A program made the position numbers and the translations under genes. A DNA stretch of 64,000 nt from Zoroaster sp. YZ-2022 (lineage: Eukaryota; Echinodermata; Asteroidea; Forcipulatida; Zoroasteridae), in contig CM055835.1 in assembly GCA_029582265.1 (NCBI GenBank), positions 15,795,580 through 15,859,579 on the forward strand. The letters are read 5' to 3'. The notes beneath the pieces are model-generated. The model was not told the origin of the DNA. It saw only the letters and a list, made by a program, of their open reading frames with translations, and did no database searches. This document shows, piece by piece, positions 3,669-62,725 of this stretch (position 1 is the first letter of the stretch; every line of letters starts with the position of its first letter).

Positions 3669-4140
3669 GCTCAAGGGGGTTACAATTGTTGGAGTTGAGG
3701 AATGTAAATTTAGAAAATGGATCCCTTGAATAGGAGTGACCAAATCCCCACCCCCTGGACTGGGGCAAAAATTGTCGGGCATGATGCAATGACCAAAGTG
3801 CTCGAGTGAAAATCTACAATTTGTAGTAGTTTGTTGGGGTTATTTGTATTAATTGAAACAGCTAGTTCATGTATAGATATAGCATAGAAATTTTAACATC
3901 CACCCAGCCGGTCGTGCTATTTAGCGTCAACAAGCTGAAAATGCACTCCTTATGCTTCCAAAAGAATAGCCTCGTATTCGAAAGGCCCTTATAAGTCGTA
4001 TTATGCAAGAAATTGGGGGAATTCACATTCACAATCCCACATTAAAACGAAAATTTATCGGCAACGACTTCGGAGAGTGGAGGCCGCCATCTTTCTTTTC
4101 TCAGCGCAATATTCATTTTGCGCATAACATTTCTTTTGAC
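3669..4140. other. Intergenic, no gene seen
   Basis: No gene. A small inverted repeat GCGCAA/TTGCGC lies at about 4104-4122. The left end of the Transib-like copy would be expected near here but its terminus is absent. Confidence 0.4.
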
Positions 4141-4654
4141 AGAAGCTATCGTCATGTAAATTGAATTAAACCCAGTGCATGATCTATATTCTATCCAAAT
4201 TAACTCGATTGTAAATTAGCTTTTTGATTTCATCAATAAAAACTGGGGAATTTTGTTTAAAAAAATATAAAATAATAATAGCTTTTTTGTTCAGCTATAG
4301 TGGAACTGGAAATTCCCGCCGATTCCCGCCTAAATTCTCATATATCCCTGAAGCTGAACCTTTCAGCAACATTTTGATACCACAATTAGCTGCGACCACC
4401 TGCGACCTGTGATTTTGTACCTATTTTTGTAAACCCCATCCCAACATTTTTTAACCTAGTTTTGTTCATAAATCGACTGTGAGCAGCGCCCGCCACACAA
4501 AGAAAATGACAAGACTTAATTATTCCCTTAGTAAAGTCTTGCGAAATGATAGCCATAATAAACGATTGTGTAGTTTAAAATGTTATCAGTGTCTTGATAG
4601 TGGAAAGTACGGAAGAGTAGTACCGCCACATGAACAACTGAAAAAATCTCGCTC

Positions 4655-5198
4655 TTATCGTGTACATACACGATAACTATCATGTACGTACACGATAACT
4701 ATCGTGTATGTACACGATAAGTCCAAACTATCATGTATGTACACAATAACTTTAAACTTATCGTGTACGTACACGATAATTATCGTGTACCTACACGATA
4801 ACTATCGTGTACGTACACGATAATTTATCGTGTACATACACGATAAAACACGATAAATTATCGTGTATGTAGTTAGGCCTATCGTGTACGTACACGATAA
4901 CTTTGGACTTATCGTGTACGTACACGATAACTTTGAACTAAAGGGCCGGTCACACTGCAGCGATTACAAGTAACGATAATGAAAACGGCGCAAAAGAACG
5001 CATTCTATTGGTTAAATTGTACTGCGCGGAATACGCGCACGCTTATCGATGGCGTTCATTAGCAGTGTTCTCGTTCTCCTTAATCGTTATCGCTGCAGTG
5101 TGACCGGCCCTTTACCGTGTACGTACACGATAGTTATCGTGTACGTACACGATAGTTATCGTGTACGTACACGATAGTTATCGTGTACATACACGATG
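4655..5198. repeat. Array of about 14 copies of a 20-bp perfect palindrome
   Basis: The unit is TATCGTGTACGTACACGATA, its own reverse complement, joined by short linkers such as AC, AACTTTGGAC or ATT. About ten full units and a half unit lie left of the nested MITE and four lie right of it. Variants change one or two bases (GTACAT, GTATGT, GTACCT). Each unit can form a hairpin. The array occupies most of the foldback element. Confidence 0.9.
4941..5112. mobile_element. 172-bp MITE nested in the palindrome array
   Basis: Perfect inverted repeats of 24 bp begin AAGGGCCGGTCACACTGCAG on each strand. TA flanks both ends (4939-4940 and 5113-5114), suggesting a TA target. The interior is AT-rich with no frame. 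Tandem palindrome units continue on either side, showing that it inserted after the array formed. Confidence 0.8.
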
Positions 5199-5880
5199 CG
5201 AGCGAGATTTGTTTGTATTCATGTGGCGGTACTACGCTTCCGTAGGAAAGCAAGACGTATCCAAAAAGTAATATTCAGTCAGTGAACCCCTATACTGGTA
5301 AAAAATGATCACAGGTCTACATGAAACTTATTGCTGTTAAATTGATCATGGTAACAAACAGAAATGAAATATGTTGGTCTCATGTGCTATCAAATTTAGT
5401 AAAATAGTGAAATAATGTCAAAAACAAATCAACATACGAATGAATACGAAACATCTAAATGCGTTTTCATTATTTTCTCGGATGACACATAATAAACTGA
5501 AACTTTCACAGGTTGGTTGTTTAATGTATATCTTGATTCAAAGAAAGTAAGGATACTTTTAGAAACATTTTTTGTTACAAACATTACCAATGTATAATGG
5601 ATTTAAATCACTAACTTCCTCAAATTGTTTAACGATAATTTTATCCTTAAAATAATTTACAGCCGTAACATACCGGTATACACTCGATTAGTGTAATTTA
5701 AAACGATCAAAAACTCAATTGAGTTTATAAAGCTTGATATCCGCAGTCCAATCAGAAATCAGTATTTTGATGACGTCATAAAGCTTTAAAAACACTTCCA
5801 TTGACATCTGCGGGTCCGAAAACATATTTGGGTGTAATATGCCACTTTGGCGCACTTTGGTCCCACACTGGCCCACTGTG

Positions 5881-8950: not shown

Positions 8951-10305
8951 GTCTTTACCATCCGTTAATACACCCCACGTGATTACGTTTTGTCCAATCA
9001 GATTATTGTCTCGACTGTTTTGAGCATTTACGAATATATTTTATTAACATATTGAGTGGTGTTCTAATCAGGAACTGATCAAGAAGATATGTCGATGGCC
9101 CTCTTGCTTGTAAAGATGTATCGCCTGTGAGTTTATTGCTATTTTACTCCTATATATACTTTAAGGAAAAATTTATATGTAAAAGGATACCATCTGGCAC
9201 TGTAAGTTCCAGTTTTGCATCTTCCCTAATGTAAAGACAATGTACAATTTTAATTGATAATTACCAGATTATCAAATCATGGAGGTATAGAAAAACGAAG
9301 TGTTATCTAAAAATTGTATTTGTTGTAAAGTTAGTAATATTAATCATCTTGAGAAATTATTATGTCGAATTAACATAAAGTTACCGCCCGGAAACTTTTT
9401 GGAACAAATAAAATCATAAACATGTAACAGTTGTTTTTAGCACATTACATTATGTAAACAAAAAATATGCAAACAAAAAATTTTCCCCGCAGAGAAATAT
9501 CTGACTCAATTTTTACCATTGAGAAGAGTGTCATCAATCCGAAGTATTTCCCTGGAGAAAATATTCAGGGGGCTACTTCTGTTTTTTGAAGGAAAAACTG
9601 TTCGCCGCCCCAGCTCCCTTAACAAATCCCTAGCTAAGTGCCTGATTTGACTTCTTTTCTATTAGGAAAGGAGCAATGTATATATGGATTTAAAAAGAAA
9701 AGAAAAGAAAAAAGGAAAACTGTAATAATAAACTCCCGTTGCCATCCTACGGGGAAAAAAGCTGCGCACAGCACGACCTCTGCACACACACACTAGTCTT
9801 TTATGACCCTGCTTTGTCTATGTCTACAGGGTATATGTCTATGTCTACACGCAGCTCAACAAGGTTCAGTCTAGAAATTTCTATCAAGGCTGCTCTAACT
9901 ATTATTGTACAAAGCCTTGGCGATTTTCAATACAGTAAATCCGTGAAACAACCACTGCTCACTTGCATGATACGCTCTGCTGAACATTGAAAGCTACAAT
10001 ACACTATTTGCAGTAAGCTATTTTCAGAAGATTGCCTACATTTCAACCTGTGATAGGTCAGCTTACTATAGGCCTACATTATTTCGTTTTCGAGAATAAT
10101 AATGAAAAAATGCATTCAGATTTGTTGTATTCATTCTTTCGTTGAACTCCATATTCGTGTAAACATCACTTTGCTATATACATTGCATGTAACTGTAAAT
10201 GCGTCAGTATTTGGTCCTTTTTGGTTATCTATGCTTAATGAAAATGTGCATAAAGTATTCATAAAAGTGTATAACAAATTCTGGTATTTTCACAATAAAT
10301 CACTC
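8951..10305. other. Intergenic, no gene seen
   Basis: AT-rich sequence. A purine run GAAAAGAAAAGAAAAAAGG lies near 9697-9717, and a short duplication TATGTCTACA/GTATATGTCTATGTCTACAC near 9817-9850. The frames at 9739-9990 and 10102-10314 show no motif. Confidence 0.4.
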
Positions 10306-13580: not shown

Positions 13581-13838
13581 CTTACTGTACGACAGAGATG
13601 TACAATATTGGTCGTCTTGGAAAACATAAAAGAACACAGTTTCACAAACAAAAAAACTAACAATTTGTGATGGTATCAAACATCCCTTGAAACATTTCTG
13701 TCTCAAATGCTTTCATGTTTTAGTAAAAGTAGTAAAATAATTTCTAAAGTGACTTTTAGTCATCAGAGGATAGAAATTCCACTTTGAAATGAACACTAAC
13801 AATCTGAATGTATTTTTCACTATTTTCTGGCTAATAAT

Positions 13839-14077
13839 ATATACATAACAGCAAAAGAAACGTCACCCCCTAAATCTTGTTAAGTAATTATATTATTAAA
13901 CATAATAAATATACAATGTTGTGGGATGGTTGGCTGCCAGGTCAACCAAATTTGCCACATTGTGTTCGTGTTACACTCCATACTCATAATATTCTTCATT
14001 AAACAAATTATATTAATTATAAAATGAAAATAATAAATATGTTTAGGGGTGACGTTTCTTTTGCTGTTATGTATATA
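13839..14077. mobile_element. Tc1-type MITE, 239 bp
   Basis: Inverted ends of about 35 bp read TACATAACAGCAAAAGAAAC then GTCACCCC(C)TAAA on each strand, with one indel. TA dinucleotides flank both ends. The core AACAGCAAAAGAAACG is shared with the end of the Tc1 transposon at 33.25 kb and nearly so with the fragment end at 15.55 kb, so this deletion derivative could have been mobilised by that family. The interior has no frame. Confidence 0.8.
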
Positions 14078-16570: not shown

Positions 16571-16795
16571 ACGTAGTACTGAAGTGTCTATCATGCAGGT
16601 AGTTATTCTAATCACCATTGATTGACCCAGTTTCCTCGAGATCGATCAGCAAAGTCTCACTGCCATTTTGTAAATTTCTCCTAAAAGCATTTGCAATGCA
16701 CGATGACACTTTGTGAGAGTCCTTGTTGCATTCTGCCTGAGATGTGACAATTATATAGTGTGGAAGTGGAACATGGACACCAGGAACGAAGGTCT

Positions 16796-17037
16796 TGTAA
16801 CGGGCAAAGGTTACTTAAAAAGGAATTTTAGAAGTACAGGAACATACCTTTGAAGATTGACAAGATATTTGAAGAATTTGATTGACTGTTTTATTTTCAC
16901 TACGGCAAGTCTGCCATCTTGAAAAACAAATCCCAGCATGCATCTGCCATGCAAGTACAAAGGTCACAAATAAAGTATGGAATGCGTTAGGAACAAATTA
17001 AAGTACATGTATAGTAATTATTTGTGTTACCGCTACA
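16796..17037 (-). repeat. 3' LTR
   Basis: 242 bp, TGTAACGGGC...CCGCTACA on the plus strand. It differs from the other LTR by a small insertion with local repetition (ATTGACAAGATATTTGAAG near 16857-16875) and about ten substitutions, so insertion is not very recent. Confidence 0.93.
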
Positions 17038-17048
17038 CTCCCCCATCC
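17038..17048 (-). promoter_or_regulatory. Polypurine tract
   Basis: On the minus strand GGATGGGGGAG directly precedes the 3' LTR (TGTAGCGG). This is the expected plus-strand primer position for reverse transcription. Confidence 0.8.
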
Positions 17049-17546
17049 TAAGAGTAGTCCCCCATAGGTAATGTGTGGGTAAAATGCACAGAACAGTTTT
17101 AAATCACATGGTAAAAATGTCTCTCTCTTGGTTTTTGTTTAAACAATTGTGGGGCATTTCTACATGTAGGAACAGAGAAACCCAAAATGATGCAAACCAA
17201 GACTGGCACTTATAGTTATAGAAGTGACCGTGGGTAATAAAATGAGACTACCAGTGTTCACAAATCAATAGTGTACAGTTCACAGTTCAATAGACGACAA
17301 ATGTACCAAGCCTACTAAACTCATGGTATCCACAGACAACTTTACCAAACATCCTGTTAATCAACACGGTCTGGGTGTGGTGTTGAGCAATTGTCAGTGC
17401 TTCTGTTGTTTCATTGGTTGGTGTTCTTTTTTTTCTTTCTTTTTTTTAAAACAAATATCGCAACTTCAAACAATAACACTTCCAGCACAGCTAGAAAACA
17501 TATATACATGAGCACAACATTAATCCTCAGAGCAAGACAGTGATTG

Positions 17547-18572
17547 CTATGTTTGTTTCCGCGCAACGGAACAGTTATTCAATCTGGCAAAGTTTAACTT
17601 GGTCCACGTGGGCGATGATCTCCTTAGTCGGGTGGGCGAGACTGACAAGCTTAAGATTGACTGGTGTAGGCAGGTCAGCAACAACATAGGGACCTTAACC
17701 ATTACATGGTCACCTATGCGGATTGTGGGCTGGCGGCGGCTCTGGTTGTAGTGACGAGCTCGCTTTTTCTGTGTAATGTCCATGCGGTGTCGAACCTGTT
17801 GTTGGAGTTCTTCACCGGTAGTGGCGGGGGGGTCGAGGGTGGCGCTGTCCAATTTATTCGACAGGGGTGATTGCAAAGCTCGACCTAACATGAGGCGGGA
17901 AGGAGCAACTCCAGTGGATTCGTGATCCGCCGAGTTGAGAGCGAACACAAATTCCGAAACATGTACATCCCACGCTCGATGATCATTGGTTGTGAATGCC
18001 TGCAGCATTCCTTTGACGTTTCTATTCACACGCTCCACCCAGTTCGTTTGCGGATGATAGGGTGTAATGAATTTCTGATGAACACCCCACTCAGAGCAAA
18101 CTGCTTCAACAGCACGGCTGATGAATTGAGGGCCATTATCTGAAAGGAGACAGCGTGGCGCTCCATAGCGACAAAATAGTTGGCGTACAAGGATACATGC
18201 AATGGTCTTACCAGTGGCTTTCTTTATGGGAAAGATTTCACACCATTTGCTGAAATGGTCAACGGCCACTAGTAGGTATTCATGGCCTGCGTAACTCTTG
18301 GGGAGGGGCCCCATCAGATCAACACCGACTACCTCCCAAGGCTCACTAGAGTGGGTCGAAAGCATCATTCCTGCAGGTTTGCGAAAAACTGGCTTGGTTG
18401 CCTGGCATGTTTTACAAGCGCGGATGAAACTACGGACATCTGTTGACATACCTTTCCACCACAAACGGTTGTTTTTGAGGCGGTTGATAGTTTTTGTTCG
18501 ACCCTGGTGGCCTGCGACTGGTTTTGAGTGACACTCGATGATAACATCACGTTGTAGGGCTTTAGGGACCAT
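17547..18572 (-). pseudogene. Gypsy integrase region
   Basis: The frame begins within the HHCC zinc-binding domain ([12 protein letters not shown], then FIRACKTCQ). The catalytic core follows: VGVDLMGPLPKSY with the first Asp, LLSDNGPQF with the second, and PYHPQTNWVERVNR with the Glu; 34 residues separate the last two. IRIGDHVMVKV starts the C-terminal beta-barrel domain. A one-base change near 17690 shifts the reading frame there, so the last 50 residues of this open frame are not authentic. The upstream join is also frameshifted: the preceding RNase H-PHD frame overlaps this one over 18365-18572. Integrase inserts the cDNA copy into host DNA. Confidence 0.88.
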
Positions 18573-19507
18573 GCTGATTGGGTGTAATACAACAGCACTC
18601 CATTGTCGAGTCGATACTCTTGTGCCTGTTTCTTTATGCTTTTAGCCTTGCGGGGGTCATCAGGCAAAGTAGCATCATCATGTATGTATTTTGTGAAGTT
18701 GGCACAGTCTGCATCTTGGAGTTGAGCCTCGTGAAGATGAGCGCGAGTGAAATTGGTACCGGCACATATATCTGGAGTCACAGAGATATTGCGCCACAAT
18801 AGCTCTTTGTGGTTGTCACGGCGGCGTTTGCGGCAGAGAGGACATGAGTATCGAGGTAGTTGTTCAGCCCTGCTCTTACGAACGTGAACACATTTTTGGT
18901 GAAACCCCTGATCACAGTCATCACATTGAATCCAATCCAAGACATTTCCTTGTGGATGGAGACAAACTGTAGCACTGCAAGGTAGAGTCAAGTTTGTGGG
19001 GACCGTGTTATCAGGTGTAAGCGTTACAGGCGTTACTGGACGTGTAACAGCATCACGGGGGGCGGACATGTCAATTGTTGGTAGAGGTGTAGTCACTTGG
19101 GCACTGCTTCCAAACGTAACATGAGGCTGATGGCATGATGTGAGAACAACACCGACGACATTGAGAACCTCATGAATTCGCGACAGTGCGTCGGGGACGT
19201 TGTGTTGGGGGCCAGGACGGTAGACTACATCGAAAGAGAAATCTTGCAGTCGGAGAACCCATCGTGCTAAACGTCCCGTCAATTTAGTTTTACGGAACAA
19301 CCAACAGAGCGCCTGATGATCAGTCACGACACGGAACTTCCTCCCTTCCAGGTGGGGACGCCATTTTTCAAGTGCCCAGACCACTGCCAAGCACTCCTTC
19401 TCCGTGGCACTATAGTTACGTTCAGCATCATTTAGTGAGCGACTGGCATAGGCAACCACGCGTTTCACAGAGCCTTGTGACTGGAGAAGCATGGCCCCAA
19501 GACCCAC
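18365..19507 (-). pseudogene. Gypsy RNase H followed by a PHD finger
   Basis: Residues 1-115 are the RNase H domain ([20 protein letters not shown], then [14 protein letters not shown]) ending [10 protein letters not shown] Thr/Pro-rich linker follows. Residues 177-226 (about 18830-18979) form a C4HC3 finger: C-x3-C, then [13 protein letters not shown], then SCPLC, the pattern of a PHD domain that commonly reads histone tails. After it, NFTKYIHDD and [10 protein letters not shown] lead toward the integrase zinc-binding domain. The N-terminal start of RNase H lies in another frame, because a 10-bp tandem duplication at about 19539-19558 (AGTCAACCCT/AGTCAACCGT) shifts the frame after RT. Confidence 0.85.
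18830..18979 (-). other. PHD-type zinc finger inside pol
   Basis: Eight zinc ligands are seen in the order C, C, C, C, H, C, C, C, with [15 protein letters not shown] as the core; the Trp before the third Cys and the Cys-Pro-Leu-Cys end are typical of PHD. All ligands are intact although the surrounding gene is frameshifted. Position between RNase H and integrase is unusual; chromoviruses place a chromodomain after integrase. Confidence 0.8.
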
Positions 19508-19541
19508 ATTGCTGGCGTCCGTATGAATCTCGAACGGTTGA

Positions 19542-22244
19542 CTAGGGTTGACTGCGGTTGGGGAAAGCGAGTATAGGGTCGGTAGTTAGCAAGTGTTTCA
19601 GCTGAGCAAAAGACGACTGGCATTCTCGAGTCCATTCCCAATTCACCTTCTTCCGACGGAGTTTGTGCAGTGGTTCTGCAATGCTAGCATAGTTGGGAAT
19701 GAATTTATGGAACCAGGCTGCCATTCCCAAGAAGCGTTCAAGATGTTTGACTGTGGTTGGCTCAGGGTAAGCCAAGATTGATGACACTTTTTCCGGATTT
19801 GGTTTCACCCCATTCTGGCTCACAATATGTCCAAGATAGTGCATCTCATGTTGGGCAAAGGTGCACTTTTCCAAGTTGATTGTCAGCCCAGCATCCTGAA
19901 GTTTCAATAGTACTTCGCGTAAGTCAACCAGGTGCTGGTTCAGGTCGGTGGAGTAGACCACAATGTCGTCCAAGTATACATAGCATGTCCGACCAATGAG
20001 GTTGCCTAGCACTGAAGACATTAGTCGTTGAAAGCTGGCTGGTCCATTTACAACACCAAAAGGAAGAACTCGAAATTGAAACAATCCCTCATCGCAAACA
20101 AACGCTGTTTTTTCAATATCCGCAGGGGCAACACCCATCTGCCAGTATCCCGAGCGAAGATCGAGAGAACTGAAAACTCTGGCTCCATGGAGTGATTCCA
20201 GGATTGAATCAATGGTCGGCATGGGAAATGCATCAAGTTTTGTGACTGAATTTAAGCGGCGATAATCGACACACATGCGATATTCCCCTGATTTCTTCGG
20301 GACCATGACGACTGGCGCCGCCCATGGTGAAAAAGAAGGCTCGATTTTCCCAGAGTACAGAAGTTTATTGATCTCTTGCTTCAGAGCATGCTTTCGGTCC
20401 GCTGACAACCGATAGGGGCGTAAACGAACAGGTTCGGCGTTTCCGACATCAATGTGATGCTGAGCGATGTCTGTGTGGCCAGGTTGTTCTGAAAGCACAT
20501 TGGGAAAATCGTTCAAAACGTCTACTAACTGGCGATGTTCATCGGTAGTGAGTTCATCATCGATCGTCAGTGTAGGGGAAGAAGGTAAGTTCGCGTCAAC
20601 CGGGGAGTTGTCTCGTCCAATGGGGTGTGCCAGAGGTGGTGGCACCCCCAGAATAGGGAACTGGACACATGGACCCAATTCAGTTTTTGTCCAGTAGCAG
20701 TTCCGGCCGAAATCGAGGACTAAGTTTGCTGCTCGAACAAAGTCAATACCCAAAAGAATTGGGGATGGCAAATTACGAACACAATGGAACAGCATATTGG
20801 TATGTGTACCGCCTACCTCAATAGGTAATGTGAGTGTCCCTAGTGTAGGCAACTCAGTACCGTCCAACATTGTGAAGGTTTCAACAGCAGATGACACTGC
20901 TGGAACGATTGTCAAGCGATCACATAGTTCATCAGTGATGAGCGATAGTGTAGAACCTGTGTCCACTAAGGCTGTTAAACAAAATTGTTCATTGATGGTA
21001 ACCTCGACCAATGGACCAATACCAAGTCGTGGATGGAAATCATACGAGTCAGGGCTTGTCAGGGCACACGGAGCTTGTTGAATAAAGTTCACATGGTTGG
21101 TCGGGGCAGCGGGTGGGGCAGCCCTCGGTTTGTCTGGAGTAAACGATGATCTCATCGATTGTTGAGTCCAATCTGTCTTTGGTGGAGCCGGCATGGGGCA
21201 GTCTGCCTCTTTGTGTCCCAACTGGTGACAACGGTAGCACACAACATTGTACTGGTTTCGTCGGGGTTGGTTTGGTCTGCGTGACCAACTCTGACCAGGG
21301 GTGGCATCTGTACGACCAGTGGTATTTTGCGGGGATCGTGCATCTGGTTTGTCTGAAAGTTTAGGCAGTGGCGTGCCAGTTTTGCTAAATGGTTTGTTGA
21401 GTGATGGTTGTGTGGTGGCATTGCTCCGGCGATGTAGGAGAAATTCGTCAGCTGCCTTGGCAGCTGTTGACAACGATACAAATTTCTTTTCACGAAGCTT
21501 TAGTCGAAGCTGTTCATCTCGAACGGTAGAAAGGAACTGATCAATCATCACGAGATTGAGTGCTCGCTTGGTGTCAACATCCTCACGTTTGACTGAGGGG
21601 ATTTTAATCCATTTGTTGAAGTTATCTTCAAGGCGATGAGCCAATTCTTCAAAGGTTTCATCTGCCTTTTTTGTGTCAGATTTGTACTTCAATCTGTACT
21701 CCTCGGGTGTCAAGAAGTAACGTCGATGGATCACTTCCACTATCTTGTCGTAATCACACTTATCAATGTCGCTTAGTGAATGAAAAGCCTTTTGGGCTTT
21801 CCCAGTGAGATAGGGTTCTAACAAACGTGGCCACTCATCCTTGGTTTTTTTGGCTCCAGTGGCTAGACGTTCAAAAGTGCTTAAATAGCAAGCTACATCA
21901 TCATCATCAGTACCAAGCTTGTGAAAGTCCGGGAGTTTTGGTCCCACCTTCACGACCGGTGGCGTCTTAGCAGACTCGGCGACAGCATTGGCAAGTGTTT
22001 GGCATAACTTTTCTGTGTCTTGTTGCCTAGTTGTTTCAAGTTCTTTGATTATCTTGAGAAGATCAAGGGTTTCTAAACCCTTCTGTACCGGTGGCAGCTT
22101 TCCACCATGTGTGACAAATCACAGAGGCATGTGATACGCTCTTGTTTGGTTTTGATTGCCGAGACATCAATGTGGTTTAGTTCACAATTAAAGTCTGCCG
22201 ATGTGGTCCGCTGTAAAACGGCTCAGATAGGTTGCTCTATCCAT
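19542..22244 (-). pseudogene. Gypsy gag, protease and reverse transcriptase
   Basis: An ATG at 22244 (MDRATYLS) begins gag but frameshifts break the first 100 codons; the long uninterrupted frame runs from about 22116, its GTG at 21953 being only an arbitrary start. Counting from there, residues 85-175 resemble the capsid domain from which vertebrate SCAN derives (FEELAHRLEDNFNKW, LVMIDQFLSTV). CYRCHQLGHKEADC (239-252) is a CCHC knuckle. ALVDTGSTLSLI (328-339) is the protease active site and LLGIDF its flap partner region. RT spans about 535-790 with MCVDYRRLN, FSSLDLRSGYWQ and the catalytic YVYLDDIVVY (658-667). Gag and pol share one frame here, with no visible frameshift signal between them. 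RT itself looks intact up to the 19.5-kb break. Confidence 0.9.
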
Positions 22245-22425
22245 ATTTAGGCAAACCCTTAATGATAATACAACTGGAGTAGGTTAACTCTTATCTCGAT
22301 AAACGTGTTGACAGTTTTGTGGTTTCCGAGAATAGCACTCAGAAATGTGTGTAGAACAATAATCAATAACGTGACATCTATCATCAAATACTTTAATCAA
22401 AAAAGTGCAATGTCCTTATTCTTAA

Positions 22426-22443
22426 ATCCTGCCGCCTACGCCA
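22426..22443 (-). promoter_or_regulatory. Primer-binding site, tRNA-Ser type
   Basis: Two bases inside the 5' LTR, the minus strand reads TGGCGTAGGCGGCAGGAT. From memory of animal tRNA-Ser (3' end ...ATCCTGCCGACTACG plus CCA) this pairs with one mismatch. The Bombyx mag element also uses tRNA-Ser. Confidence 0.7.
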
Positions 22444-22445
22444 AT

Positions 22446-22671
22446 TGTAACGGGCAAAGGTTACTTAAAAAGGAATTTTAGAAGTACAGGAACATATATT
22501 TGAAGATTTTGATTGACTTTTATTTAATGATCACTACGGCAAATCTGCCATCTTGAAAAACAAATCCCAGCATGCATCTGCCATGCAAGTACAAAGGTCA
22601 CAAATAAAGTATGGAATGCCTTAGGAACAAATTAAAGTACATGTATAGTAATTATTTGTGTTACCGCTACA
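22446..22671 (-). repeat. 5' LTR
   Basis: 226 bp with the same TGTAAC...GCTACA plus-strand limits as the left LTR. It lies at the upstream end of the minus-strand element, so it holds the promoter; I cannot place a convincing TATA box. Confidence 0.93.
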
Positions 22672-26384: not shown

Positions 26385-26389
26385 CGCTG

Positions 26390-28070
26390 CACAGTGGGCC
26401 AGGGCGAAACCAAAAAGTGCGCCAAAAGGGGTCATTTGCGTCATTTACATTTTTTAGGTTGCTAAGACCCCCTACGACTAATTTATAAACAATTTAAAGT
26501 CAAATTAATATTTAATGACTGTAGAACTGCCTTACAATCTCAAAAAACTGGAAAAATCTTTGATAAAAGCCGGTTGCTGGTAACAAATTTTAAATTGTCA
26601 TTGTGGGCTGTTGGCAGAAGCTATCGTCATGCAAATTGATGTAAACCCAGTGCATGATCTACATTCTTTAAAATTAAGTCGATTGTAAATTAGCTTTTTG
26701 ATATCATCAGCAAAAACTGAGGAATTTGGTTTTAAAAAATTATAAAATATAGCTTTTTTTTGTTCAGCTATGGTGGAACTAAAAATTCCCGCCGATTCCC
26801 GCCTATTATAAATTCTCATATTTCCCTGAAGCTGAACCTTCAGCAACAAACATGTTGATACCAAAATTAGCTGCGACCACCCTGCGACCTGCGATTTTGT
26901 AGCTACTTTTGTAAACACCATCCCAACATTTTTGAACCTTTTTTCGTAACTCGACTGTGAGCAGCACGCGCCACACGAAACTGACAGGACTTAATTATTC
27001 CCTTGCGGTTTCCGCTTCGTAAACAAAGGCAAGTCGTGCGAAATGATAGCCATGATAAACAATTGCGCAGTTAAAATTGTTATCAGTGTCTTGATAGTGG
27101 GAAGCAAGACGTATCTAAAAAGTAATATTCAGTCAGTAAGCCCCTACTAGTAAATTCGCAAAACAAAAATTATCACAGGTCTATATGAAACGTATTGGTG
27201 TTAAATTGATCATGGTATCAAACAGAGATGAAATATTTTGGTCTCGTGTGCTATCAAATTAGTAAAATAGTGAAATAATGTCCAAAAATAATTGCTGTCC
27301 CTCCGGAAACAAAAACAAATTGACGTAAGAATGAATACGAAACATCTGAATGCATTTTCATTATTTTCTCGGATAATGACACATAATAAACTGAAACTTT
27401 TACAGGTTAGTTGTTTAACGTATATCTTGATTCAAAGAAAGTAAACTTGGGCGCTATCGACTTTTTTTCATCCACGATATATCGGCAAACATATATTGCG
27501 ATTTTCGATAATATCGCGATTTTTTTCAATCATGCATGATTGCTTTAGAGCCAATAACCACCTTCTACAAGCATCACAATTGCAAATTCGTTTGCGTTGT
27601 GTATATGTACTTCTGAAGGAGTTCACTTTTGTTTCTCACTTCCAAAAGACAGTTGTAATGTTGTTTCCATGGAATTCCTGACTTGACTCACAATCGTGTT
27701 ATCGCCCAAGCTTAAAAGTAAGGATACTTTTAGGAACATTTTCTTACAAGCATTACCAATAGTGTATAATGGATTTAAATCACAAACTTCCTCAAATTGT
27801 TTAACGATACTTTTATCCTTAAAATAATTTACAGCCGTAACACATACACTTGATTAGTGTAATTTAAAACGAACAAAATCTCAATATTGAGGCTATAAAA
27901 CGTGAATTATCCAAGGTCCAATCAGAAATCAGTATTTTGATGAAGTCACAAATGTTTAAAACACTTCCATTGACATCTGCGGGTCCGAAAACATATCCGA
28001 GTGTAATATGCCATCAAAACAATGGAAAATTTAGTTTTGGCGCACTTTGGTCGCACCTTGGCCAACTGTG
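26390..28070. mobile_element. Non-autonomous Transib-like element, complete copy
   Basis: The left end reads CACAGTGGGCCAGGGCGAAA then CCAAAAAGTGCGCCAAAA. The right end on the other strand reads CACAGTTGGCCAAGGTGCGA then CCAAAGTGCGCCAAAA. The inverted repeat is thus about 37 bp. CGCTG flanks both ends (26385-26389 and 28071-28075). A 5-bp GC-rich duplication with CACA-starting termini fits Transib, the superfamily related to RAG1. Each end shows a heptamer, a 12-base spacer and an A-rich nonamer, like a 12-RSS. No RAG1-like transposase frame is seen in 1.7 kb, so the copy must depend on another source. A 270-bp hAT-like MITE is inserted at 27445. A hAT variant with 5-bp duplication is the main alternative. 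Confidence 0.65.
27445..27714. mobile_element. hAT-like MITE inserted in the Transib-like copy
   Basis: The inserted segment starts ACTTGGGCGCTATCGA and ends ATCGCCCAAGCTTA, short imperfect inverted repeats. AAAGTAA flanks both sides (27438-27444 and 27715-27721). Copy 1 of the host element reads AAAGTAAGGATACTTTT at about 5542-5558 with no insert, so it is the empty site. The interior holds ATATCGCGATTTTTTTC-type sequence and no gene. Confidence 0.8.
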
Positions 28071-28075
28071 CGCTG

Positions 28076-56755: not shown

Positions 56756-57628
56756 TGTAGTGATATAGTTTTCTTGTCTTTCGACATTGACTTGATGTCA
56801 AATAAGGGGAGCCTGTCATGAGCCAGCTTGTTGAAAGTTATAACTGTAGTGTACATTTATTCCTCCTTTAATCAGCCACAAAAAACCTAGTACAAATAAA
56901 GCGTACAAACAAATAACATTCCCTATTTGTTCATGTGAGTGATGCATAATCATAAAAATACATGAGTATGTACGCATACCCCCACTTTGCAGCCGTGAGT
57001 CACATGTATACATTATACATCCACATAATGTATGCATATGCATACATGCATGATATACGACAACCATGCTGTTCCAACATAAAAGTTTTTAAACATTAAC
57101 TACCAAAATATGGCCCAACTTTTAAGTGACTCACCAACCAAGTCGATCCTCGACTTTCTTTTAACGCATAATTATGCTGCCCATAGCAGTGTCCAGCCCC
57201 TTCTCACCCATATAAAGGTGAATTTCACTCCATTTAGCAACGTTGACACTGTTCAGCACAACTTGGCAAAAAAAAGTCGAGAGCGTTCGAGAAAGTTCTG
57301 GCTACATATTAGTACGCGCCAGAGTTATAAACATGTTTTCTTCCCTAATTGGCTCACAAAATATCAGTAATAAACTAAAACACATTGACAATGAATACTC
57401 AATTGAATGCAATAAGTAGTTTTCTTAATGGAAGAGACTGCCCAGTTAAATAAATGTTATGAAAAGAACTATTTTATGCTCCTGGCACAACCCCAAAAAT
57501 GTATACGTGCGCGACCATTAAAATTTAAGTGCGCCATCTGCCGATCACACTCAAAACGATAATTATTGCTATTACAAAACAAACTCACACGTACTTGTGC
57601 GTAAGGTCTTAAAAACCTTTTCACCACA
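56756..57628 (-). repeat. 5' LTR of the third gypsy element
   Basis: 873 bp, TGTAGTGATA...TTTCACCACA on the plus strand. It matches the solo LTR at 10420-11187 but carries about 110 extra bases near 57448-57590. The inner flank on the minus strand is TGGTAACACGGATGGGGTGC, a candidate primer site starting TGG; I cannot name the tRNA. Confidence 0.88.
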
Positions 57629-58195
57629 GTCCTCATGCAAAAGGTTAGATCCCAACAATTTAGATTTTTGACTAACTAAATCCCCCCCCCCCCCCCTAAG
57701 TAACAAAACATAAATACATAACAAGCATACAATTCAGACGGGGAAACATACAAAAACAACCACCAAATACATCTATACTAATACCAATTTCCAGTTGAGC
57801 TTTAAAGGTGTGGGAGGAGGGTATATTTCCCCCATGGATAGTTCCTGATAGACGCCATCTGTACAGGCAACTTGGATTGAGCTGCACGAAGCGTTCTAAT
57901 TTTTATATGGAGTAAAAGTGCTTCACTAATCAACAATTGATGCACGGAATGTACCGCGACTCCAGCATGTTGTAAACAAAAGATTTCGCATGGTGTGACG
58001 TACGTCAAGTAAAAAACATCTGTATTCACCAATCAATGAGTTCAGGATTCTTAAAACACTGGAAAATAGTATGGATGAATAATGTATTTATTTAATATAA
58101 AACATAAAGTACAATAATTGCTATACACACTATATTATGCCAATAACGTTAATCTTATTTAGTCATGAGATTTGTTCTCTATATTTTATTTGTAT
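57629..58195. other. Intergenic, C-run
   Basis: A run of 14 C at 57683-57696. No gene. Confidence 0.4.
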
Positions 58196-58248
58196 TAGTG
58201 TAAGCGCCTTGATGAGCGTCAATTTGACGGAGATGGCGCTATATAAGA

Positions 58249-58282
<34 letters not shown>
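58196..58282 (+). repeat. 3' tail of a LINE or SINE with (ATT)n
   Basis: GCGCCTTGATGAGCGTCAAT and GACGGAGATGGCGCTATATA lead into a TATTATTATT run at about 58250-58281. This is the usual 3' end of CR1/L2-mobilised repeats. Nothing upstream identifies the parent element. Confidence 0.6.
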
Positions 58283-58284
<2 letters not shown>

Positions 58285-59575
58285 AGTTTCATTGTGCAGT
58301 AAATAATTATTACTTTATAGAAAGCACATGTTATATACCAATAGTACTACAAAACTATGAGCAGTTTTACTGTAAAGGGAATGTACAACACTGGTATTTG
58401 ATAACGTACATTCATTTCAACACTTAGTTTTCAAATTATAAAACTAACCTGTGAATGTTTAATCACAATAAGTGAAAACAGTGAAACACTGTTACAAGTT
58501 TGTTTTTTTGACAAAAAGTTATGTTTGACTGCATTTTGTTTTGTAAATTTAATTTAATTCTTTTTGTCTGTAATATAAAAGCAATTGATACAAAAACATG
58601 TAGGTACTTGTTGATAGGTTTGTTGATAGATAACAGCTTGATAATCTGGTAATTACCAATGTTGTACCTTCCCTTGTAAAATGATTTCAAGCAACACAGA
58701 ATTAATTTTCAATTCAAATCCAAACACAGAACAAAAGGAATTGTATTTTACATGCATACAGAATAAGACATTGATATCACATTTTCAGCACAATGCATTA
58801 GTGGAGAACATTTTGAAAACATATCTGCAAATGTTTTTTTTTATGATGTTTACAAAAAGGTATTATAAAAATAATTATTAGGATGTTCAAAATTACATGT
58901 AAAACATAACAATTTATATATTTGTCCTAAAAGAAAAAACAGTTTGGACAATATTGTTGCAATAGCAAACTGGTTGTCATGGAAAAATTTTCACAATTAT
59001 AATAAGTAGACCTCAGGTCATATTTCCATAATAAAATTTCACATTAAATTTGTTAAAAATTGTTTTTAAAAAATATGTTATTAAGAAGAGGAAAGGTAAT
59101 TGTGACAAAACTCAGTTTTGCTGTCACCACATTATTGAATTAAGTATTTCATTAAGTTAAAATTCAAGTAATATTGTTATCATATTATTATTGTTTTTTA
59201 CTAGTCAAATGTTTCAACATGCAAATATATGTATTACAAAAATTAGAGCAGAAAACATTAAACAATGCCTACCAGAACATGATATTATGAAACTTTACTG
59301 GACAATACACCAGTATTTGGTAACTTCATATAAGCCTAATTTCAAAATATAGGCCAATATGGTTTTTATCAGAACTATGGTCGGATTAGTGCAAACTGAA
59401 CCGATTCCTAATTTACACATTAGTCAAGTGGTAGCCAAAATGGCAGAGTGAGGATAATCTTCAAGGGATCGTACAACAATGGTCCTGTTGTAGGATTTGA
59501 GGTTTTGCATGGTGGACATAGATGTTATTGAGTTCTTTCCGGTACACCATGTAATGATCTCTTTTTGGAAAAAAG
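58283..59575. other. Intergenic, downstream of the complement-like gene
   Basis: Very AT-rich. Short frames have no motif. No clear AATAAA for the minus-strand gene was found close to its stop; AATATAAAG at about 59862-59870 on the minus strand is one possible variant signal. Confidence 0.35.
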
Positions 59576-59650
59576 TGATGGCTCTGAGAAGAGCCGGTTG
59601 GTTTGTTCTCAACGTTTTGAATAGTCTGCTGTAGTCATCGTCAGGAGACT
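59576..59650 (-). ncRNA. Second Penelope-type terminal module
   Basis: The minus strand reads TCTCCTGACGATGACTACAG, ..., CAAAACGTTGAGAACAAACC, then GGCTCTTCTCAGAGCC. It aligns throughout with 44246-44316: same CTGAnGA, same AAACGTYG and the same 6-bp stem with 4-base loop. CAAAA replaces GAAA, so hammerhead activity is unlikely. It is the remnant end of a Penelope-like copy about 270 bases downstream of the complement-like stop codon. Confidence 0.45.
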
Positions 59651-59923
59651 GTTAAATGGCCCTGTTAATTGGCAAAATTGCTAAGATATACATTACACAA
59701 CCAATTGCTTGTTTGTTGGTCACAAGAAAATAGTGAAAATGCATTCATATTTTGTGTATTCATTCTAACATGGGTTTTTATCTTCAAACTGACATGCACT
59801 TCAGACAGAAATATTTGTAGGGAAGATTAATACCATCCTCAGATTGACACTAAGTAAGCTTTATATTACAATTTGATGGGGGGGGGATAAAAACAAGGAG
59901 AAAAACCATTATTGTACAATCAT

Positions 59924-60068
59924 TTAAATTGGGCATCCACTTCCTGAAACCAAATCTGTCTTCAGTTTATTGAGTTTACTTTCAATCTTCTTCCATTTCT
60001 TACTGTTCAGCTTACTGCCAGTGGGCCACTCATAGAATGACGTTCTCTCGTCAATGATGTACTTGAAG
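59924..60068 (-). CDS. Complement C3/C4/C5-like protein, last coding exon
   Basis: The exon follows a strong acceptor (C-rich tract, then TTTTTCCTCACAG). It completes a split codon and reads FKYIIDERTSFYEWP, KWKKIESKLNKLKTDLVSGS, then GCPI and TAA at 59924. The Tyr-Ile-Ile...Trp-Pro strand and a C-terminal Gly-Cys-Pro just before the stop match the end of the C345C domain in C3-type proteins. Only one Cys is present, whereas vertebrate C3 has more in this stretch; one disulfide may be absent. C3-type proteins carry a thioester and label targets after cleavage; the C345C domain contacts convertase partners. Intron before it: 60069-61249. Confidence 0.85.
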
Positions 60069-61249
60069 CTGTGAGGAAAAAGTGGGGGGGAAAAAATCAC
60101 ACCATACATTCAGTGGCATTCACGTACTAAATATTTCAAATGGCAAGAGGTATTAGATGAGAGGCGGATCTACGGTGTAAAAAAGGGGGTGGAACCAGTG
60201 GCGTAACCATGGGGATAATGACCCATGGCCGAATATTTTTTATTGGAACATTGATTATTTCTTTTAACCCTTTCATTACCGATTTGTTTCAACAGGATGT
60301 GCCACTGGTTACCGAATTCCCTGCCCAGTCATACATAAATTCACACATTATTGCACAACAGTATGCATCCATTTACAGCCACATTTGTCTAAATCAATTT
60401 TTCACCTTGAAGAATTTGTTAGGGAAATAAATATTGAATGAAATGTTGTTTCTCATGAAATTCCCTTTCCTATGATACCAAAATCAATAGGATTGCATAT
60501 AAAATGATAGGGTTATCGATGTTACTTCCCCCTGACCTTGATTCTCAAACACAAAGAGCATTTTGTACACAAGCATATGGCATTCCATATTGTGATTTGA
60601 CAAAAGATAATATCGTTATTAAACGACAAAGCCCCCTGAAACCTCCTGGATGTTTAATTTTGGAGGATTTTCAGACTCTCCACATCCCCACAAACAAGAA
60701 ACTAGAGATTTGGACACAATACAGGCTACTTCTTTCTTTCCTTTGTGGCTACTTCTTTAAAGAAAAATGTTTAGGCAAAGGGAGATTTGTAAAAATCCTG
60801 AAATCGGGAAATTCCTGAGGAATCACAGGCCTGATTGTATAATGTTTAAGCATTTGTTTTACCTTCCTCAAATAAATTAGCAAAGTATCGATGAAAATTA
60901 ATATTGCCAGAGAATGCCATTCAAATATAAATTAAAAACACTGGCGGTACATCTTCAACATTTTTTCAAATATTAATACGGAAATTTTTTTTTTCTAAAA
61001 AGATAATTATATATTTTTAAATTTTTTTGTTTGCTGAACTGAATTTTTAATAAAATAAATGTACTATTTTTAGTTAATATTTTGTAAAGTTTTTTGGTCA
61101 TTGTTTTTTGGGGGAACCTTTTCTTTTCCTGGCATATACCACTAGCTATTTTGTATTGTTTGGTAATGTATTGTACATTTTTAAATGCAAAACAAAATAA
61201 TTAATATTAATAATGGAAACAATAATAATATATTATTTCTGTGACTAAC

Positions 61250-61388
61250 CTTGGTTGCCCCATGGCGTTTGTGGTCGGTAGCCCACCACTGCCGATTACC
61301 AGGAAATTTTTCTTCCTAATTTCTGGAATTCCACAACTCTTGCTCTTCCAGAAGGTTCGGTTTTCGCCTTTTGTCACAAGATCAAGAC
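61250..61388 (-). CDS. Complement C3/C4/C5-like protein, C345C exon 4 of 5 seen
   Basis: Acceptor TTTTGTTGTCACAG; donor CAAG|GTTAGT. The 139-nt exon reads LDLVTKGENRTFWKSKSC, GIPEIRKKNFLVIGSGGLPT and NAMGQP. G-x-x-R-T-F followed by a Cys, then a K-K-x-(Y/F)-L-(I/V)-x-G strand, is the netrin-like fold pattern of C345C. It joins the next exon in phase 2, giving a Ser before FKYII. Confidence 0.87.
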
Positions 61389-61939
61389 CTGTGACAACAA
61401 AATTTTGAAGAGAGAAAGTAGTATCAGTTTTCATTTTGGTGAACAAAACCTTGATTTTTTTAAATTAAATTTTTAGATTAAACTTTTACACAACCCTGAA
61501 GTCAATACAAAAATCGCAATATAATGATTATCTTCACTATATATTTATAGTTTCCGAGTGACCCACAGTGCATTTTGGGAATTCCTTAAACAAGTATTCA
61601 ACGGAAGGAACAGCATTTCGTAATTACTAGATTATCACATTTACATGTTACTATCTAATCAATCATTCTGTGAAAATTGTTTGTCTGAAGTTGCTTGCAT
61701 CTCAGAAAAAAACCCAGGAATTGTGATGTTGAATTTTTGAAAAGTAGAGCTCAAAAATCGGCAGAAAGGAATTTTCAAACAATTGTTATACATTATGCAC
61801 AGCAAGCGAAACTAACTTGTCAAGCGGACACAACCACACCCCACCCCCATCCTTCAGACCTGCAAGCCATGGGTGGGGCTCGTTCTTCCATCCCCTTCCC
61901 AGCCTAAAGTTTACTACTTCAACCTAGCTTGAGACTCAC

Positions 61940-62023
61940 CATGCTTGAGTGGAGCCAGAATTGTCATAGTTAAGTACTGGAAGTTACCTCTATGTTTGAT
62001 TGAAACCACTTCCACTTCATAGG
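61940..62023 (-). CDS. Complement C3/C4/C5-like protein, C345C exon 3 of 5 seen
   Basis: Acceptor GATACAATTTCAG; donor CATG|GTGAGT. The 84-nt phase-1 exon reads YEVEVVSIKHRGNFQYLTM and TILAPLKH, the first central beta strands of the netrin-like fold (alternating V-x-V-x-x-I). It is below the length easily found by frame scanning. Intron 61389-61939 follows. Confidence 0.82.
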
Positions 62024-62725
62024 CTGAAATTGTATCAAGATAGGAACATTAATACTTCCTGTAGACTACTAAGGTCACAATAATTAGGTCATGACAAACC
62101 TCCCTTTCATTTGTTCACTTCAATTTCTATTTTATGGATTTCGACCCCCTACAAGGATAAAAACGGCCAGTTGAGAGGCTACAGAAAAAACATAAACGAA
62201 AGGACGATTAGAACACAGAGATACTACGACATACAGTATATATACACACAAAATGAAAGAGGAGATGACACCTAAATCACATTGAGAAATAGGCAATAAG
62301 GTGTAATTATAAGGAGGTATATGGCCGTGTCTGAATTAAACATTTTTGGCTATGTCTATGGCTATTGGCTACAGTGGTAATGCTGAAGTATAGGAAGATA
62401 CAGAACTGAAATGTTTTTTCTTTCAAAAAAGGGCATAAGGAGGAAAAGGACTAGAACAAATTATAATAAATCACCATATTTTTGAAATATTTTACAAACT
62501 ACAACATCTTTATTCTATGTAAGTGTGAAGGGCTGTGTGAAATATTGTTAATATCCTAAGAAATTGATAATTGTATTAAGTCCATGATTTTGCTACATGC
62601 AACGTTCAGTACATGTTACCTACAAAAAGTGTGCCAAATGGTTAAGAACCTAGTCCAATGGATTTTGGCCATTCATGACATTGTATTCCACAGATAGATG
62701 CGCAAGGTCTTAAAAAACTTTGCTA

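Follow-up and report, generated by a model that had tools for sequence, protein, structure and literature searches.

A stretch of 64,000 nucleotides from the genome of Zoroaster sp. YZ-2022 (hereafter, the window) possesses a complete 1681-bp element, which, judging from its ends and target-site duplications, probably belongs, as a non-autonomous member, to a DNA transposon family of the Transib type. The Transib group is related to the vertebrate antibody-gene recombinase, and CACTA, Chapaev, Transib, and RAG1 constitute one clade. The superfamily assignment rests on the ends and duplications because no autonomous partner was found. A preliminary description of the element had noted that its ends resemble a recombination signal sequence (RSS) with a 12-base spacer; the element, its CGCTG flanks, and the end letters quoted there were all correct in the window sequence (Table 1).

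The inverted ends of the element are 36–38 bp long and contain a perfectly matched stretch of 14 bp. When the window was scanned for CA..TG pairs that lie 100–4000 bp apart and have identical 5-bp flanks, this element exhibited the best ends (15 of the 20 terminal bases identical), and four other pairs followed at 13/20. The left end consists of CACAGTG, 12 bases, and ACCAAAAAG, which matches the RSS nonamer ACAAAAACC at 6 of 9 positions, while the right end, read inward, consists of CACAGTT, 12 bases, and ACCAAAGTG (5/9). The longest stop-to-stop frame inside the element is 130 aa, and the 1412-bp family consensus, made from 16 copies that are 3.3–5.1% from it, has no such frame longer than 73 aa; the element codes for nothing recognizable. 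Relative to the consensus, the window copy has an AA insertion in the left end and T at heptamer position 7 of the right end. The nested 270-bp insert has imperfect CTTGGGCG ends and 7-bp repeats, and its site is empty in copy 1 and in other family copies. Because several copies that differ in their target duplications (L001, L002, and L006) have the insert at one and the same site, it appears to have spread within the transposon family.

Table 1. Parts of the element and of copy 1, in window positions
Feature	Positions	Strand	Remark
Copy 1, left fragment	4133..4607	+	without left end
Insertion inside copy 1	4608..5244	.	TACGG..CCGTA ends, 6-bp duplication GGAAAG; fits published IS3EU signature
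Copy 1, right fragment	5245..5880	+	right end intact (inward CACAGTGGGCC at 5880)
Left target-site duplication	26385..26389	.	CGCTG; same letters at 28071-28075
Complete non-autonomous DNA transposon, 1681 bp	26390..28070	+	3.7% from family consensus
Left terminal inverted repeat, 38 bp	26390..26427	+	CACAGTG start; 2-bp AA insertion vs family consensus
Nested insert with flanking repeats	27438..27721	.	270 bp at 27445-27714; AAAGTAA at 27438-27444 and 27715-27721
Right terminal inverted repeat, 36 bp	28035..28070	-	inward CACAGTTGGCC
Right target-site duplication	28071..28075	.	CGCTG

Copy 1, which is interrupted by another element, has no recognizable left end; its right end, inward from 5880, reads CACAGTG, 12 bases, and ACCAAAGTG (5/9 to the nonamer). 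The interrupting insertion is 637 bp long and rich in TATCGTGTACGTACACGATA palindromes, and the IS3EU signature of TACGG..CCGTA-type ends and a 6-bp duplication is given in the cited parts of PMC10045372 and PMC12730594. One internal part of the element (about 815–1019) has diverged matches at window positions 13662–13848, 10045–10142, and 59683–59801, and no family end was found beside these. The window also contains a gypsy-type retrotransposon (16795–22671) with SCAN and PHD matches, whose protein has its best named relatives in the sea star Patiria miniata (53% identity) and the sea urchin Lytechinus variegatus, and a histone 3′ stem-loop (Rfam RF00032; 59554–59600, minus strand), around which no minus-strand frame of at least 80 aa with a start codon was found within 57500–62500.

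The family is well represented in the genome. In the 1.0-Gb assembly (616 contigs, the window being on C20), a 32-base end pattern that tolerated up to 2 mismatches detected 519 family ends (240 + 279), 125 of them exact (53 right-type and 72 left-type), whereas the reversed-pattern control gave 0. Searching with the whole element retrieved at least 119 matched pieces (40 scored of 6076 candidates), many of them tandem repeats or fragments belonging to a single copy. The left and right family ends have the same layout and are near-identical over 36 bp, with the consensus CACAGTGGGCCAGGG(C/T)G(AA/GG)ACCAAAGTGCGCCAAAA. Among 41 distinct ends from 30 loci that had been retrieved with the whole element and not with the end pattern, 31 start with CAC, 27 have CACAGTG, and GG follows in 35; a few misplaced end calls (e.g., L013 and L016) are among the misses. 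Over a wider locus set, CACAGTG is present in 60 of 78 ends, many of which were fetched by a pattern containing CACAGTG. The right end of L002/L003 has 4 extra bases, and its CAC start still lies at the duplication. A scan of viral contigs with the family end pattern gave 0 matches, and a literature search for CACAGTGG-like ends met such letters only in an RSS paper and one unrelated paper.

Some copies have features of their own. Many in the series L046–L066, several of them on C2, share the flanks caataccg / taccggta and were therefore probably copied along with a larger repeat that carried them. Tandem expansions of about 33 bp are present inside copies L006, L012, and L022; in L020 and L021 the expansion is of about 22 bp and comes from inside the left end.

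Perfect 5-bp duplications flank 14 tabulated insertions, at least 13 of which are independent: CGCTG, CGTCG, CGTCA, CGGCG, GGCCG, CGGTG, GGACG, CGACG, CGCCA, CGCCG, GGGCG, CAACT, GGACG, and CAACG. Two of these insertions, L018 and L029, come from a first, separate table, and L029 may not be independent of L012 because the two have near-identical flanks in opposite orientation, in which case 13 of the 14 are independent. The consensus of the duplications, CGNCG, is palindromic and 80% GC, with base counts by position of C10/G4, G12/A2, mixed, C12/T2, and G11/A2/T1. Two further duplications were read by eye, namely CGATC in L002/L003 and TACCG in L064–L066. In a systematic table of 22 end pairs, obtained after collapsing similar flanks, all 5 bases are identical in 13 pairs (one a paralog; L004 is a paralog of L006) and at least 4 of 5 in 17, and L005, L009, and L020 look mispaired. 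No matching right flank and no duplication were found for L013, L024, and L027, which represent one flank type. Insertions L012, L013/L024/L027, and L029 are apparently at the same host-repeat site in both orientations, which would point to a hot spot or to inversion between the ends.

CAC ends and GC-rich 5-bp duplications have both been described for relatives of RAG1: the Transib/RAG group has CAC ends and 5-bp duplications (PMC7204232), ProtoRAG has 5-bp duplications with a GC bias common to Transib and RAG (PMC8289069, cited in part), and the Drosophila Transibs hopper and transib2 have 5-bp duplications with a palindromic CCANTGG motif, according to the cited part of PMC3276498. The ends and duplications of the present family therefore fit Transib. 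The Transib-type origin suggested in the preliminary description was thus supported by their recurrence in independent copies. Tabulating the copies, as proposed there, gave 5-bp duplications with the consensus CGNCG, and 8-bp ones, which in most copies would have meant, according to that description, a chance RSS resemblance, were absent among the pairs examined: no pair of the 22 matched over 8 bp, the best being 5/8, and an 8-bp duplication of the hAT or P type was rejected.

The main rival explanation is that the family belongs to hAT5, the hAT lineage with 5-bp duplications, and is moved by a hAT transposase. The ends of hAT-like elements are CAnnG, which A at position 2 and G at position 5 of the family ends would suit, and a 5-bp duplication accompanies the 14 tabulated insertions. 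Animal hAT families with 5-bp duplications exist, as stated in the cited parts of PMC12730594 and PMC9004415, and they share this duplication length with the present family. However, CAC (PMC7204232) and GC-biased 5-bp duplications (cited part of PMC8289069) are published for Transib/RAG, which weakens the hAT explanation, and we consider it unlikely.

The likeness to a 12-RSS was divided between its parts. The heptamer held, CACAGTG being the family consensus, whereas the nonamer at a 12-base spacer was no better than chance. The 6/9 score of the left end results from the 2-bp AA insertion, which among the 41 distinct ends is confined to the window copy. For the consensus ends, the score is the same 5/9 at spacers of 12, 13, and 23, and the right end scores 6/9 at 22, so spacer 12 is not singled out. 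At a fixed offset, a score of 5/9 or more is reached by 7.5% of the positions in the window, and one of 6/9 or more by 1.8%; with six offsets around 12 and 23, 31% of the positions reach at least 5/9. Neither at spacer 12 nor at spacer 23 was a nonamer found above this level in the family consensus. When every CAC site of the window (1981, counting both strands) was scored on the heptamer plus the nonamer at spacer 12, 3 scored at least as high as the left end, 10 as high as the right end of copy 1, and 29 as high as the right end of the element, each of the three counts including the end in question. Moreover, both family ends have the same layout, and a pairing of one 12-spacer end with one 23-spacer end was not found.

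Published data on RSSs and Transib ends are consistent with this division. A massively parallel 12-RSS assay gave 0.020 for CACAGTG followed by GG and 1.144 for CACAGTG followed by AT, the former being the lowest-ranked consensus heptamer context in the cited part of PMC9723617. According to the cited part of PMC8289069, the two ends of most Transib families are symmetric and include a heptamer but hardly a nonamer, if any, and the 12/23 asymmetry reported in Transibs concerns, as far as the cited part of PMC8355894 extends, a few other families. The present family shows that the vertebrate heptamer can stand at the end of an ordinary transposon that has neither a nonamer nor any spacer asymmetry, and also that scoring one copy alone can manufacture a nonamer.

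Four exact end pairs span 3.8–5.3 kb, including one of 5271 bp on C13 (C13:16026295-16031565), and no autonomous copy was present among the three long pairs that were read (L062, a pair on C14, and L063). L062 owes its length to a nested DDE_3 (Tc1/mariner-type) transposase (E 2e-16), the C14 pair, with L083 inside, has a nested DDE_3 match (E 0.00018, below the curated cut-off), and L063 has no frame longer than 94 aa; all three were rejected as autonomous copies.

A RAG1 profile search of the genome, with places listed to E 1, gave 28 matched places, 13 of them over the Pfam cut-off (best E 1.2e-109), and the same profile gave no matches in 14 control genomes. RAG1-like places are located on C1, C2, C4, C9, and C22, the last with an uninterrupted 593-aa frame at C22:3652482-3654152. 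The preliminary description had proposed looking for a RAG1/Transib transposase gene flanked by the same ends; none was found near the 125 exact ends, no RAG1-family place being within 291,764 bases (0.29 Mb) of them in a distance mapping of these 125 of the 519 family ends, the other 394 being those with mismatches. A weak RAG1-family match at C3:60880959, with no exact family end near it, lies inside a 575-aa frame (L082, 316-2043) that matches DUF1280 (E 7.7e-8) and RAG1 (E 0.0011, below the cut-off). The frame matches a C-terminal stretch of mouse RAG1 (E 0.0052), which we take to hold the last catalytic residue, and is, by its sequence, a RAG1-related transposase; none of the 17 structures it matched is labeled Transib. 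The predicted transposase has 74 relatives, two of them named, from the sea star Asterias amurensis (72% across one third of the query) and the coral Oculina patagonica (36%).

These searches bear on a second explanation, in which the family is a non-autonomous partner of a RAG-like (ProtoRAG-type) transposon and is moved by the RAG1L/RAG2L pair of the same genome. The RAG1-like sequence in the genome, 13 of whose 28 places exceed the Pfam cut-off, and the identity of the family consensus heptamer with that of the RSS would favor it. The distance of at least 0.29 Mb between the exact ends and RAG1-family places argues against it, as do the ends, which match published RAG-like ends at only 7/17 and 5/13 positions; the family heptamer agrees with the RAG-like CACTATG at 5 of 7. 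RAG1L–RAG2L genes were not found between the ends, neither the element nor the consensus having a long frame. The ProtoRAG kinship raised in the preliminary description thus found no backing here, and we regard this explanation as very unlikely. It is equally doubtful, we think, that the family provides numerous natural substrates for one of the host's own RAG1-like proteins, RAG1L moving them in trans; if it did, a heptamer identical to that of vertebrates would be in use without a nonamer or the 12/23 rule.

A CACTA/EnSpm-type element, for which the duplication would be GCT (3 bp) and the ends GCAC.., is extremely improbable and largely excluded: EnSpm families with CAC..GTG ends exist (PMC12730594, cited in part), and the window copy, taken by itself, has a G before the CAC of each end, so that GCT is readable there as a 3-bp duplication, but the flanks are identical over 5 bases across insertions with a variable middle base, and the 3-bp duplication was rejected.

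For a Transib-type element, a transposase made elsewhere would most likely bind the two near-identical 36-bp ends and cut beside CAC, and the excised DNA would enter a GC-rich CGNCG site through a 5-bp stagger that gives rise to the duplication; we infer both the cut-and-paste movement and the identity of the transposase as Transib. The present family is a well-populated addition in which the CGNCG target is sharp and each end has CACAGTG as its consensus heptamer. Its fixed ends offer a handle for finding the mobilizing transposase.

Compared with known systems, the family shares the heptamer CACAGTG with the V(D)J 12-RSS, but it has neither a nonamer above chance nor 12/23 asymmetry, and its heptamer is followed by GG, the lowest-ranked context in the cited part of PMC9723617. 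Like ProtoRAG and other RAG-like transposons, it has CAC and GC-rich 5-bp duplications; unlike them, it lacks RAG1L/RAG2L genes and has a different end sequence after CAC. It differs from Transibs in that no transposase gene with the family ends was found and in its target, CGNCG as opposed to the CCANTGG given for the Drosophila families in the source as cited. With D. melanogaster hopper and transib2 and with Hztransib, it has in common heptamer-like ends without a nonamer, symmetric inverted repeats, 5-bp duplications, and a palindromic C..N..G target. We conclude that this non-autonomous family is new but ordinary, and that it works as a Transib does and most likely is one.
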